Shown here piece by piece: positions 35,031 through 41,748 of a stretch of DNA of 64,000 nucleotides; positions within the stretch are counted from its first letter, which is position 1; each line of letters begins with the position of its first letter. The stretch is from positions 15,097,501-15,161,500 of the forward strand of contig NC_088922.1 of assembly GCF_038396675.1 (NCBI RefSeq), written 5' to 3'. Under the pieces are notes generated by a model. The model worked only from the letters and a program-made list of their open reading frames with translations, did not search any database and was not told where the DNA came from. The DNA is from Hydra vulgaris. Its lineage: Eukaryota > Cnidaria > Hydrozoa > Anthoathecata > Hydridae. A program made the translations under genes and the position numbers.

Positions 35031-35035
35031 CAATG
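35031..35035. repeat. Target-site duplication CAATG (left)
   Basis: CAATG immediately before the heptamer-like CACAGTG; repeated at 38,003-38,007 after the other end. Five bp is the size made by RAG and Transib transposition. Confidence 0.9.
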
Positions 35036-35074
35036 CACAGTGGGCCAGGTATATGGGAAATGGTGGACAAAACC
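35036..35074. other. 23-RSS-like transposon end
   Basis: CACAGTG (35,036-35,042), a 23-bp spacer beginning GGCCAGGT, then GACAAAACC (35,066-35,074). The V(D)J signal consensus is CACAGTG-12/23-ACAAAAACC; the heptamer is exact and the nonamer is a near match. The opposite end has the same parts with a 12-bp spacer. Confidence 0.88.
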
Positions 35075-35367
35075 TAATTATTACCCAATTGGTCCACAAA
35101 CCTATTTAGATATATAAATAATCATTATATATGAAATAATATTTATTTTTAACAAGAATATTTTAATTTTTAATAAAATAAAAGACATTTAATTGGCTTA
35201 GGTAGTAAAAAATATTTTTTTTCAATATCAACCTTTTTTAAAAATCAAATAACAAATTGTGTTTAGCTACAAAGAAAAAGAAGAAGGTGGAGCTGATTCC
35301 CTCAGCAAAGCCAAAACTTCACTGGGGTATTTTTTTAAACTCTTACCATTTTTTTTATGACACTTTC

Positions 35368-37284
35368 TTAATGATGTTTGACAGGATCACTAGATACAAG
35401 TAGCCTGTTAACTAGGTCACGATTTGTGTCAATTCTGGAAGTCTTTCTACTGAAATCTTCCCTAAACTTTTTAAAATCCTTGTTACAGGCCTCTTGGGCC
35501 TCCTCTGACATCAGTCCAATTGGCAAGTACTGTCTAGCAATGATGGCATGGCCATGAACTAAAATTTTGTGTACTGATTGTGCCATGTAATACCAGGAAT
35601 ACTTAGATATGTAAAGTTTAAGAGCAGTAATACAGAACTCTTTAAATTTGACAGTGTCAATTTCAAATCCAGATGATAAAGTGACTAGTATGATGTAAAA
35701 ATAAAATAAAAGAGTTTCATCTACTTTCAAAATTTTGGCAGTTGATTGATAGTTTGCAAAGGCTCGTCGGGCAGTGTTACCATCATTACTGGTACCTACA
35801 AATTGTATATATGTGATAGTTAACCTGATGATTTATATAAAAGTATTTATGTAATTTCACTTACCAGATCCTCCACTTTTTGGGAAATCCACAACTAGTC
35901 CCATTTGGTTCATAAATTCTGTCTGTATACGTTTCTTCACTTGCATAACATTTTCTTTATCTTCTATAGCTCTAGACTGCCACTTTTGAGTTTCTAGTTT
36001 ATATCCAATATGCAATACTATCTCAAAAAACCTAATCCAGGCATGCAGGCTAGAAAGACCATATTTCAATTCTAAATTATTAGAATTGTCCAATTTCAGC
36101 ACCATTTCTAAGTTATTCATGTTTTTTGGAGACACACCACACACAGAGCAACATTGAGTTGAGTTAGTCACATGAGACAGAATAGTTTGAATTTTGCCAT
36201 CAATCATGGTCAGTTCAATAATACTTTTGACAACCAGTTCCTTTCCATTAAAAGTAAAATTAAAAACACCACATTTTTTGATTTCAGATGCTTTGCTTTC
36301 ATTTTGAAAAGAAAATCTTATTGGACGACAATATGCAGTAGATGATGGCTTTTCATTTCGCCATAATAGTACTTTTTTGTTATTACAGAACCCACTGAGT
36401 TCTAGTGGTGCTAAGCAGGTAATGAACAGAGATTCTTCTTTTTTTAAGTTACGATCTCCAGCTTCCTCACTACTAATTTGCTTGTACATGCTTTGCCCAG
36501 TAGCCCCATCAAACCCAGCCTTGCAACGCAAAGTCAACCGGGTCAAACCATCTAGCATTGTGCTGATCACAGGAGCTTGCACCTCACAAAGTCTTTTTAC
36601 TGTATGTTTTAATAATTCTTGTAGTGGTACATGTGCTGAATAATCATCAACAAAGATGTTCTCTGGATAGCACTTAGCTTTGGACAATCTTATGTTGTTG
36701 TATGAAGGATATATATGGCAGTCACGTTCTTCAGCTCCATTTCTCATAAGTTGGTAGGTTGATTTTGACATGCCACCATCTATAATTAATGCCAGACCTT
36801 CATCAGGTGTATACTTTTTAAATTGACTAGAAGGTTCTGATATCTCAGCAACTTGCTTGGCAGCCTCATAATTATACTCATTTCTTAATTTAAGCCTTGC
36901 TGAGTGGAGCAACTCATCACTAGAAAAATTATTTATAATATCATTAAGTCTTCTCCTTTTGGTTTTGTCAGAAGCAACTTTAAAGGAACAACTTGGTCTT
37001 CCACCAATCTTATGTAATTGACTAGAATTATCAGGCTTAGATATATTATTACTGTATGTAGATTTAAAGTCCTGAGTCAACCAATTTTTATTTTTACTCT
37101 CAAACTTTATGTTTCCTCGGTTTGCATCCTTCCATTTCTTTTGATAAACTTTTAAAAATGCAGCACACCCAGTAGAACCCAAATTCATAGAGACTAAAAT
37201 AGCTTCTACAGACAAAGAAAATGATTTATCACTCGGATTTAGTTGGTCATGCCGTATACGGTTATGGACATCACTTATCTTCAT
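35368..37284 (-). CDS. RAG1-core-like recombinase (615 aa, one 69-bp intron)
   Basis: Exon 1 37284-35865 and exon 2 35795-35368; intron 35864-35796 has GTAAGT...TTTGTAG and joins GGA TCT G|GT ACC in frame. Features: GGRPSCSFKV...TKRRRL (residues 94-112) resembles the RAG1 nonamer-binding GRPR segment. Residues 160-235 (DEGLALIIDGGMSKSTYQ, HIYPSYNNI) match the RAG1 dimerisation/pre-RNaseH pattern. D259 lies in AGFDGATGQSMYKQ, D362 in LTMIDGK. Zinc C379xxC382 (CSVC) lies 17 residues after D362 (19 in RAG1). H549KILVH554 equals RAG1 HKTLAH. E575 lies in SEEAQEACNK (RAG1 SEGNESGNK). Length is close to the RAG1 core (about 625 aa). There is no RING or N-terminal region. A possible acceptor TTTTTTTGTAG just before ATG 37284 leaves room for an untranslated first exon. 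The frame is undamaged. Confidence 0.85.
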
Positions 37285-37299
37285 ATCAACTACAAAAAA

Positions 37300-37970
37300 A
37301 TTATTTTAAAATTATTAGTGCAACCACTATAAACTAATATAACATGAATATGGCCATTATTTTTATTTCAGATATATTTAATTAGGCCAGTACAATAAGC
37401 ACAACACCTAATAATGACAACAAACCAAAAAATAGGTTTGTCGCGAATAGCATTTTACAACAATATATATTTTTTAAATGTTTACCAAACCTAAAGGGGC
37501 AGCTATGAGCAGAATAAAACAGCACCAACAGGCTGTACATATATTGTATTAACTTATTCTAACATTAATATGCTGTTCCAGCAGGTTCTAAACTATATGA
37601 GCCACTTTTAACATAATATTTTTATACTATAAACAAGAATTTTACCTTTATATTTCAAAATAAAACTGTGACTTTAATACAAGACCTTGGAATTTGTTAT
37701 GGTGTTTTTTGAAAAGCTATCAAATTAAATTTTAATAATATGTCAATTAATTTCGCATATGTTAAATAATTTAAAAGTTATTTGTTGTTATAGTTATGTT
37801 GTTATGGTATATTAAAAAAAAAAAAAATTAATTTATCATTATATTCAATTGTAAATAATAATTGTACATTTATGATGTACAATTAAACTACAAATAATGT
37901 TTTAAACCATACATTATGCTCTTATAAATATAATGTACTAAGTAGTTGGAAGTATTTCGAAATTTTTTTT
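37300..37970. other. Non-coding 5' part of the RAG1-like element
   Basis: About 690 bp between the gene start and the 12-RSS-like end, AT-rich, no open frame of note. Likely holds the promoter and perhaps an untranslated exon. Confidence 0.5.
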
Positions 37971-37974
37971 TTGA

Positions 37975-38002
37975 GGTTTTGTCTACCACCTGGCCCACTG
38001 TG
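37975..38002. other. 12-RSS-like transposon end
   Basis: Read inward on the minus strand: CACAGTG (38,002-37,996), a 12-bp spacer GGCCAGGTGGTA, then GACAAAACC (37,983-37,975). Heptamer and nonamer are identical to those of the 23-bp end. Confidence 0.88.
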
Positions 38003-38007
38003 CAATG
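38003..38007. repeat. Target-site duplication CAATG (right)
   Basis: Directly follows CACTGTG; partner of 35,031-35,035. Confidence 0.9.
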
Positions 38008-38766
38008 TGAAGATAAACATTTTAACTACGACACGCAAAATGAAAATAAAAATTCTGAAGTCACCGCAAATTCTACGAAAGATAGCTTTTAGCAATCTTG
38101 CGGCAAACCAACAATCAAATCTATTGTTTCAAATTCGATTAATTGTGATTCCTTATATCCAAATAATATTGAAACTAAAAATAGACAAAAACAACATTTT
38201 TCAAAAACATTTGCCAACGTTGTGGCTCAAACGCAATCAACCGCAAGAACTTCAGAGAAAATTTCTGACGTAATAAATGACAAAAAACTGAAAATGAGTA
38301 TTGAACGGAATAAAGATGACAACTTTATTTTAATTGGTAAGAATAATAAACCCGTGCGGCCTGTTGCACGCCACCAAAATTTATCTTTTGAAAAAAAGTA
38401 CCGCAAGGTCGAGCCTATCTTTGGAACTAAAATTACTGATCATAAAAGCATTGCAGGCGAAAAAATTGTACGTAAATTTGATGTCTTTGTGGGAGGCATA
38501 TGCAATCAAGTTACTGAAGAAGATCTTAAAAATTATATGATAAGTGAAATAGACATTACGCCATTGTTAGTTGCCGTAAACAAAATAAACGAGTATAATA
38601 GATCGTTTCGAGTTACAATAAACAGTTTGGAAAAAATAAAGATATTCAACCCAGAGGTATGGCACAATAATATAATTGTAAAACCTTTTAGGACAAAACG
38701 CTTTTTCAAAAACAGTGAACAAAATCTGGTATCCAATGGGAGCCAGGATAAAAATTTTAATTGAAA

Positions 38767-41748
38767 ATGGATCCAAGCAGCATAAGAGGAAAAAACAAGG
38801 CTTCAACAACTTTCGATATATGTACTTTTAACTGTCAGGGACTTAAGTCAAACATTGAATTTACAAAGTCACTTATACAATCTTATGATATAACGTTTTT
38901 ATGTGAACATTGGATATCTAAACTTGAATACTCCATAATAAGAGATTTATTTAATAAAACACACTCCATTTATTTCCATCAGTCTAATAAACATGTAAAA
39001 GGTCGACCATTTGGCGGAAATGCGTTCTTTATACGAAGAAATCAATTCCAAAATATTAGAGTACTTTACGAGGATGACCATATTTTAGCAATAAATTTCG
39101 AAAAAAATGAACTTAATATTATAGTTATTGGAATATACCTCTCCTCATCGCGGAACAGCCTCTCATCATTGGAAGAATACAAAAGTCAACTAGATATCGT
39201 CAAAGGTTTAATTAATAGTTACGAAGGTAACGGTAATATAATTATAGCCGGTGATTTCCAATCTTTTCCACACCAAATATATAACTTATTTGAAAGATCG
39301 AATTCCAAAAGAAACAGTTATTCTGTCCACTTATCTGAATTTTTAAAAACAAATCAATTAGAACTAGTAGATGTAACTAAAGGTTCTGGCCCTAATTATA
39401 CATATCGGCACCAGACGCTACCGAATTCATCATATATTGATCACGTCGCCATACCAAAATATACAAATTTCCTAAGCCTAAAATGCATTGTTCATCCTGA
39501 GTGCTCAAATAAATTAGGCGATCATTTACCACTTTCAATATCAGTTGAAGTTGAAGGTAAGCACACTAAATACAATACCACAATAGAAGAAGATACTAAT
39601 ATTCCTAGCTACGCTTGGAACGATTCTAACTTTATAAATTGATATAATGATCATTTAACCAATTGCTTTAACTATCTTAATTTTACTGATAATTATGAAT
39701 ACGACCTTATTCAAATCTATAAAATAATTGCTGGCAGCGCTCAAATAGCTTTTAAGGAAACTAAAAAAAGTAAAAAGCAATGTTTGTATTCAAAATCTTG
39801 GTGGACACCTGAATTAAGTCGTTCTAAAACTATTCTTTCAATTCATTTCAACAAATGGAGGGATTCTGGTTTTTTAAAAGATTTAAACTCCGTAACTTTC
39901 AATCGTTACTTAATGGCTCGTAAAAGCTTTCGCAAAGCCGTCAAGTTGGCTCAAAATAATAAAATTTGCGCATAGTATACTAAAATTGAAAAGTTAAAAA
40001 ATATTATACCAAAAAACTTTTGGAATGCTTTTAGATGTTTAAACAAAGACATAAATTCTAGATTATTTACCATAAATAATAAAAAAGACAAAGAATCCAT
40101 TACTTCAGAATTTGCAAACCACTTCGAAAAAGTACTGAATACTTCAAAAATAACACATCGTAATGGAAATCATCGGAGAATTCCCCCGTGTACAAAACAT
40201 GATGATGTTATAATAACTGAAGAAAATATAATTAGGGCTATTTCGAACCTAAAATTTAAAAAATCTCCTGACTCTTTCGGTATCTCAGCAGAACATTTGA
40301 AATACGCAAATTGTGATACTTTAACAAAATGGCTCATCAAATTTTTTAATTATTCATTAATTATGGATGGACACCATTATCAATGTCGACGTCTATTATT
40401 GTACCCCTTGTTAAATCGTATAAAAAATCTTTAGATAGCCCGAACAATTATCGCGGTATTAGCATTATACCAATTTTTACAAAGGTTCTAGAATACCTAA
40501 TCCTTTTAAATGCCCGGATATTAGAGATACTCACCCCCTACAATTTGGATTCAATGCTAACTGTTCAACGCTACATGCTGAATTTCTAATTAGCGAAACA
40601 ATTAAACATTACAATAGCAACAATTCACCTGTATACCTATGCTCTTTAGATGTAGAAAAAGCTTTTGATAGCTGCAACTGGAATATCCTATTTGATAAAT
40701 TATATTTCGATAAAAAATTACCACTCTGTATAGTTAACACTATCTCTTCGTTATATAACAATAGTAGTGCAACAGTGTCATATCAAGGTTGTAAATCAAA
40801 CTCCTTTCTTCTAAAGCAAGGAGTAAGACAAGGATCGATTCTTTCACCTCACCTATATAATATTTACACTGAAAGTCTTCTTGAAACTATTACAAATCAA
40901 GGTATTGTTGGCACATCGATATATGTTAACTTCACTGGTGTGGTGGCATATGCGGATGATATCATAGTTTTAAGCTCTACCCTCTCTGGTCTCAAAAAGC
41001 TGATAAAAACATGCAATATTTACTGTAATTTAAATTGTATTAAAATAAATGCCGAAAAAACTGAATTCTTGATTTCAGGTACAGCACAAATACAAACCAA
41101 TACGATAACAATATCTAGTAATAAAATAAATCTTCAGAATAAACTTAGACATCAGGGATTCACATGGGATACTAAACATTCAACTTTTGCTTCACTCAAT
41201 AATACAAATGTTGATGAAAAAATTTCAAACTTTAGAGCTGTTGTTCAAACTCTTATTCAATCTGGAATCCGGTTTGCCCACCCAAGTTCTATTTCTTATA
41301 TATATAAATTATTGGCAGTCCCTACCTTAACTTATGGTATGGAGATATGTGAAAATAATTCTGATTTGATGAAAAAGCTAGATGTAATTGGAAGGAGTGC
41401 ACTAAAATCGCTTCTAAATGTTTCAAAACACAGTAAGAACTATACAAATTCGCTATTTAAAATCCAGGAAATTCCAAAAAGTATTCAACAAATAAATTAA
41501 ACTTGTTTCTTCGTCTTCTTAATAATAAAACAACTTCAGACATTATCTTTTCACAACTGAAACACCCCTTATTTAAACATTCGTTTGTTGGCGATATTCA
41601 GGACCTATGCCGTTTTCGGATGCTAAATTTTCAAAACTTAATTCAAAATAAAAAGAAGATAAAAATAGTACTTTCTAAAAGTGAAATTCCCTCCGAAGTT
41701 GAAGCAAACGAAGTAGCAAACCACCCTCCTCCCCCATGTGATATTTGA
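38767..41748 (+). pseudogene. LINE-2 ORF2 (APE endonuclease + reverse transcriptase)
   Basis: ORF1 stop and ORF2 start are 2 bp apart. The APE endonuclease is intact over residues 1-285: FDICTFNCQGLKSN, FLCEHWISK, GNIIIAGDFQS (GDFN-like), SSYIDHVAIPK, and GDHLPLSI. TGA at 39,640-39,642 (Trp expected) and TAG at 39,973-39,975 follow, then frameshifts near 40,380 and 40,560-40,780. RT blocks: PNNYRGISIIP, CSLDVEKAFDSCNW, KQGVRQGSILSPHLYNIY, VVAYADDIIVLSS (YADD catalytic pair), then a connection domain to about 41,700. The RT style is unlike LINE-1; clade not assigned. Confidence 0.85.

Follow-up and report, generated by a model that had tools for sequence, protein, structure and literature searches.

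Transib transposons with one short and one long end are already known from insects, namely Transib5 of Drosophila and Transib2 and N1-N3 of Anopheles (Kapitonov and Jurka 2005, as cited in the accessible part of PMC8355894), all with 12/23 ends. As that part of the source describes them, these elements resemble the Hydra vulgaris transposon reported here in lacking RAG2 and in having an RSS-like heptamer and nonamer with spacers of 12 and 23 (±1) bp, but they belong to another host phylum and are compared by description, not by sequence. What is new here is the many copies and the series of spacers in one genome: beyond the fly and mosquito cases, Hydra provides copy counts, target site duplications (TSDs), empty sites, and relatives with 12/21, 11/20 and 12/12 ends. 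According to PMC9435367, subgroup I Transibs have only asymmetric terminal inverted repeats (TIRs), while subgroup II has both kinds. The tree in that work includes two elements of the same superfamily from Hydra vulgaris, HvuTransib-7_HMp and HvuTransib-9_HMp, for which its main text (figure 1g aside) gives no spacer lengths. The texts consulted, main text only, give 12/23 or 12/21 ends for no named Hydra family. CMC-Transib is listed among the putatively active elements that enlarged the genome of Hydra vulgaris AEP (PMC12220107, accessible part).

Other known systems differ from the Hydra element in other ways. HzTransib from a moth (PDB 6pqn-6pr5) has the transposase core fold and catalytic triad in common with it, but its solved chain starts at Hydra residue 155-158 and has no counterpart to the Hydra GGRP region; the accessible part of PMC8289069 calls its TIRs symmetric and describes their resemblance to the nonamer as slight or absent. 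The same text reports that ProtoRAG of amphioxus favours asymmetric 27/31 ends over symmetric pairs in assays; ProtoRAG and the Hydra element both have a RAG1-like core, but ProtoRAG has RAG2L, spacers of 27 and 31 bp and a different inner element. Invertebrate RAGL enzymes are expected to be relatively insensitive to asymmetry (PMC7204232, accessible part). Vertebrate RSSs, like the Hydra ends, consist of a CACAGTG heptamer and an A-rich nonamer ending in AAAACC with spacers of 12 and 23 bp. In vertebrates, however, RAG2 participates in the 12/23 rule, the nonamer (ACAAAAACC) differs from that of Hydra (GACAAAACC) at three of nine ungapped positions, and the spacers are highly variable (PMC8355894, accessible part), whereas the Hydra spacers are conserved and partly common to both ends.

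Our reading, to which we assign a probability of about 0.8, is that the Hydra element transposed recently and belongs to a family of Transib (RAG1-related) cut-and-paste transposons with heritably unequal ends, 12 bp on the 5' side and 23 bp on the 3' side.

Structure of the element, its insertion site and its transposase

The window, which is the whole stretch of 64 kb that was analysed, contains a Transib transposon of 2967 bp at 35036-38002, with the following features:

35031..35035, no strand: target site duplication CAATG, 5 bp, left copy, present as a single CAATG at the empty sites L059 and L060
35036..35074, plus strand: long (23-type) end, CACAGTG-23 bp-GACAAAACC, 3' (downstream) of the transposase gene
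35368..37284, minus strand: Transib transposase gene, 615 aa, with a predicted 69-bp intron removed
37284-35865, minus strand: transposase exon 1 of the spliced model
35864-35796, minus strand: predicted transposase intron of the spliced model, 69 bp
35795-35368, minus strand: transposase exon 2 of the spliced model
36817..37005, minus strand: coding region for residues 94 to ~156, which include GGRP and are collinear with the RAG1 nonamer-binding domain (NBD)
37975..38002, minus strand: short (12-type) end, CACAGTG-12 bp-GACAAAACC, 5' (upstream) of the transposase gene
38003..38007, no strand: target site duplication CAATG, right copy, adjoining the short end

An exact motif scan of the window placed the long-end heptamer at 35036 (plus strand) and the short-end heptamer at 38002 (minus strand), and the 64 kb contain no exact heptamer-(5-45)-nonamer pairs other than these two ends of the element. 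As in the Transib superfamily, the termini start with CAC within an RSS-like heptamer and a 5-bp target site duplication is present. The short and the long signal are nearly identical over their first 15 bp and their last 13 bp. A count from ACAAAACC instead of GACAAAACC would give spacers of 13 and 24 bp, and their difference is 11 bp whichever nonamer start is chosen.

When both flanks were joined with one CAATG into a query of 300 bases and searched against the genome, 33 matches were obtained, of which 11 cover all 300 bases with 93-98% identity and two more cover nearly all of them; both loci inspected (L059 and L060) carry a single CAATG. These empty sites demonstrate the insertion of the element at CAATG. 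The sequence-only reading had described CACAGTG ends with 23/12 spacers, an identical GACAAAACC and flanking CAATG, and the motif scan and the empty sites bear this out. The element has inserted into sequence that is repetitive in its own right, with uninterrupted copies elsewhere in the genome. Next to it, a frame at window positions 38761-39642 (and 38222-38764) matches the endonuclease/exonuclease/phosphatase family (PF03372, E 4e-7); this endonuclease frame is of the LINE kind, probably a non-LTR retrotransposon.

The element encodes a single spliced DDE transposase bearing a RAG1-like GGRP motif, with about 0.3 and 0.7 kb of the element outside the gene. Ten residues of the protein P0001 are absent, in frame, from the window transposase, whose C-terminal tail also differs. 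Its D259, D362 and E575 align with D126, D225 and E436 of HzTransib, the catalytic positions of that enzyme (PMC6941560, accessible part); in an alignment of 50 sequences, D259 of P0001 is invariant and D372 and E585 are at least 90% conserved. The GGRP stretch matches the RAG1 NBD weakly by sequence (3.5-4.8 bits). Core-plus-NBD superpositions on RAG1 have rmsd values of 4.9-7.2, and for four RAG1 chains long enough to include the NBD (3jbw_A, 6oeo_C, 6oeq_C, 6oem_C) the alignment started no earlier than residue 155-156.

Besides the transposase, only one frame of 80 aa or more lies within the element (88 aa, antisense to exon 1), and a 100-aa frame spans the right end into the flank; no second gene-sized frame that could encode a RAG2-like protein was found in 35036-38002, although short exons might fit into the small parts outside the gene. 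This supports the earlier description of a RAG1-like transposon with no RAG2, the transposase being of the Transib/RAG1-related DDE type. A RAGL or ProtoRAG-type element that has lost RAG2 would also have a RAG1-like transposase, CAC ends and a 5-bp TSD, but we consider this origin very improbable, since the same search gave E 5e-91 for HzTransib and E 0.38 for RAG1, and the Pfam RAG1 match reaches 15.1 bits against a cutoff of 25.

Counts and pairing of ends across the genome

We searched the whole genome (911.5 Mb, 15 contigs) for both types of end, using the same patterns read backwards as controls. The exact pattern CACAGTG-N12-GACAAAACC occurs 163 times (control 5). With the CACAGTGG/TRGACAA pattern, by which spacers from 12 through 23 were counted genome-wide, CACAGTGG-N9-TRGACAA (12-bp spacer) was found 869 times (control 1), CACAGTGG-N20-TRGACAA (23-bp spacer) 209 times (control 1), and CACAGTGG-N10..19-TRGACAA (spacers of 13-22 bp) 882 times (control 28). 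Among 100 listed ends of this last class, 87 have a spacer of 21 bp, nine of 22, two of 15, and one each of 20 and 19. The 22-bp-spacer ends among them (GGGGCAAAATTGCTTCGAAATTG style), for which partner ends were not found, point to a further Transib family.

Ends were then paired by coordinates, joining inward-facing ends less than 8 kb apart, nearest first, among the matches listed. A first pairing used 82 of 100 listed exact 12-ends (78 GGCC-like and four C-type), the rest being located past the stretch that the listed 23-ends reach, and 100 listed 23-ends, and all 45 pairs obtained among these listed ends are 12/23. Most are 1.7-3.9 kb long (42 of 45), and three, of 4.6-6.9 kb, are beyond the usual sizes. 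Among the listed ends, 33 of the 78 GGCC-like 12-ends and 55 of the 100 23-ends stayed unpaired, in part because the list of 12-ends required an exact nonamer. A second pairing, over C1 and the first 5.7 Mb of C2, used 210 ends (95 listed 12-ends, 100 listed 13-22 ends and 15 listed 23-ends) and gave 66 pairs, 58 of them 12/21 and eight 12/23, with no like/like pair and 78 ends unpaired. As these eight 12/23 pairs were already among the 45, the two pairings comprise 103 distinct elements among the listed ends, all of them short plus long (45 of 12/23 and 58 of 12/21). No like/like element was found among the 103; in the second pairing the TRGACAA pattern is blind to the 12/12 ends of family C (see below).

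As an independent check, 40 of the 163 exact 12-ends were taken with 5 kb of inward sequence, and a partner was accepted if its TSD had at most one mismatch. Such a partner was found for 28 ends (21 with identical 5 bp) and was lacking for 12. For the GGCC-like 12-ends the figure is 25 of 37: the partner spacer is exactly 23 bp in 21 cases and 21 bp in two (L026 and L030), and the remaining two are L046, with a 22-bp spacer as judged by eye and a lost nonamer, and L027, with a doubled heptamer before a 23-bp spacer. The three C-type ends all have 12/12 partners, two of them with identical TSDs, and of ten 12/21 pairs checked for TSDs eight are identical. Of the 5-bp sequences that flank these 40 12-ends on the outside, 36 start with C and 28 have G as their last base.

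The genome-wide counts and the 103 short/long elements reject a single-copy accident as the source of the layout. The sequence-only reading would have given way had other copies shown variable or equal spacers; within the family they do not, as 45 of 45 pairs are 12/23 and 21 of 25 TSD partners have exactly 23 bp.

Related families and their spacers

The window element belongs to family A (12/23), in which nine copies differ by 0.4-1.0%; these copies are very young. Family B1 (P0008), with a transposase 62% identical to that of A, is also 12/23 and includes shorter copies of ~2.1 kb, but its 23-bp spacer sequence differs from that of A. Family D (P0006, 58% identical) is larger than the 12/23 families and has 12/21 ends in a whole-read copy (L053+L052, TSD CACTG), a layout backed by the 12/21 pairs; in another copy, L051, the left end is 12-type and the right end 22-type. 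The D transposase class has 56 matches, 37 of them free of stops over the matched part. Family E (46-48% identical) has 11/20 ends in one copy, L056 89-3442 (TSD CAGTG), with the left heptamer AACAGTG and the nonamer-like GGCAAAACC and GCCAAAACC. It is the short end that precedes the gene in A, B1, D and L056, and in the unequal families the long end exceeds the short one by 9-11 bp, about one turn of DNA. Family C, a more distant lineage, is 12/12: its copies L022, L036 and L040 have 12-bp spacers at both ends (CACAGTGGAGTATTTGTATGACAAAA), which gives this genome its own natural 12/12 control.

In the tree, A groups with B1 (100/99) and then with D (100/99), and E groups with P0012 (100/99). 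A, B1, D and E sit in a group of 11 rows (fork 99/99) to which C_L022 and C_L040 do not belong and in which two rows have no assigned origin. The row C_L036 was disregarded, having been assembled from a neighbouring element (its coordinates lie outside the C copy) and having a long branch. The unequal layout is thus common to A, B1, D and E, and exact 12/23 is one state of it. The 12/23 layout noticed in the single element stands family-wide, but not as a fixed or general rule for Hydra Transibs, given the relatives with 12/21 (58 pairs), 11/20 (one copy) and 12/12 (3/3) ends.

Several rearranged or unusual ends were also observed. At ~3319-3380 in L051 the right end abuts a mirror-image end (CCCCACTG/CAGTGGGG, 22-type spacer) with no target duplication between them; this may be an aberrant joint or a pair of elements lying end to end. 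L055, of family E, is rearranged: an ~800-bp 5' end, matching the left end of L056 at 96% identity, is inverted on its 3' side and is of the 11-type, and its own left end was not found. Doubled heptamers (CACAGTGCACAGTGGGCC) occur at some ends, as in L027 and in L054 joined to L051 (1678-1691). Because some target duplications, CACTG and CAGTG among them, look like the tip of the element itself, some insertions may target the ends of other copies. The tree also places P0015, labelled as a protein of a Rickettsiales bacterium MAG, with Hydra family E at branch length 0, and its MAG contig is probably Hydra contamination. In a search for an outgroup of the ends, bacterial/archaeal and viral contigs gave 15 and 17 pattern matches, with 0 confirmed.

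Proposed mechanism and possible ancestry of the short/long layout

RAG2 is unnecessary for the short/long layout. The two ends are probably brought together much as in the RAG paired complex. The transposase dimer would contact the heptamers via its catalytic core and the nonamers via the N-terminal GGRP domain, accommodating one near and one far nonamer as in that complex. The extra turn, approximately, of DNA in the long end would bring both nonamers to a similar face of the helix, so that the enzyme would connect the left with the right end of the element and not two like ends. The helical phase is only approximate, because excesses of 9 as well as 11 bp occur. The unpaired ends, the three unusually long 12/23 pairs, the 12/12 elements of family C, the aberrant ends of L051 and L055 and the weak match of the GGRP stretch to the RAG1 NBD also count against this reading. 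We infer a requirement of the enzyme for short plus long; the constant pairing may mean only that copies inherit both parental ends, and such inheritance explains much of the uniformity.

Neutral ancestry is a real contender, although we would not quite call it probable: a founder would have acquired an 11-bp insertion in one end that was tolerated and inherited, without any short/long rule. The long end does resemble a short end with 11 bp added, the A copies are young enough for inheritance to account for their uniformity, and 12/12 elements can transpose, because all three family C copies are 12/12 with TSD partners. Against this, families A, B1, D and E, with transposases 46-62% identical, all retain a short 5' and a long 3' end with an excess of 9-11 bp, even though their spacer sequences have changed, and like/like combinations number 0 among the 103 elements paired from listed ends. 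We tentatively suggest that Hydra transposases, which are RAG2-less, enforce the short-plus-long combination via an N-terminal RAG1-like NBD, with 12/23, 12/21, 11/20 and 12/12 as variants; the logic of the 12/23 restriction in V(D)J recombination might then be a property of cnidarian transposons.

It is a separate question whether the 12/23 ends of A and B1 descend from the same ancestral signal pair as the vertebrate RSSs, such that the numbers, and not the enzyme alone, would be inherited. The 12/23 Transibs of fly and mosquito (PMC8355894, accessible part) and the proposal in PMC9435367 that asymmetric TIRs are ancestral speak for it. We regard it as unlikely, however, as exact lengths change within this genome (12/21 in D, 11/20 in E, 12/12 in C) and the tree sets D beside A plus B1.

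In the accessible part of PMC8355894, 12/23 asymmetry is described as recognised only when RAG1 acts with RAG2, and few Transibs as having 12/23 asymmetry. The short-plus-long layout exists outside vertebrate immunity. With many RAG2-less elements of 12/23, 12/21, 11/20 and 12/12 type in one cnidarian genome, and many intact transposase frames in one of these families (37 of 56 matches), the question of whether discrimination between short and long ends predates RAG2 becomes open to direct test. A natural series of spacer lengths within a single genome is useful for testing how the 12/23 rule arose.
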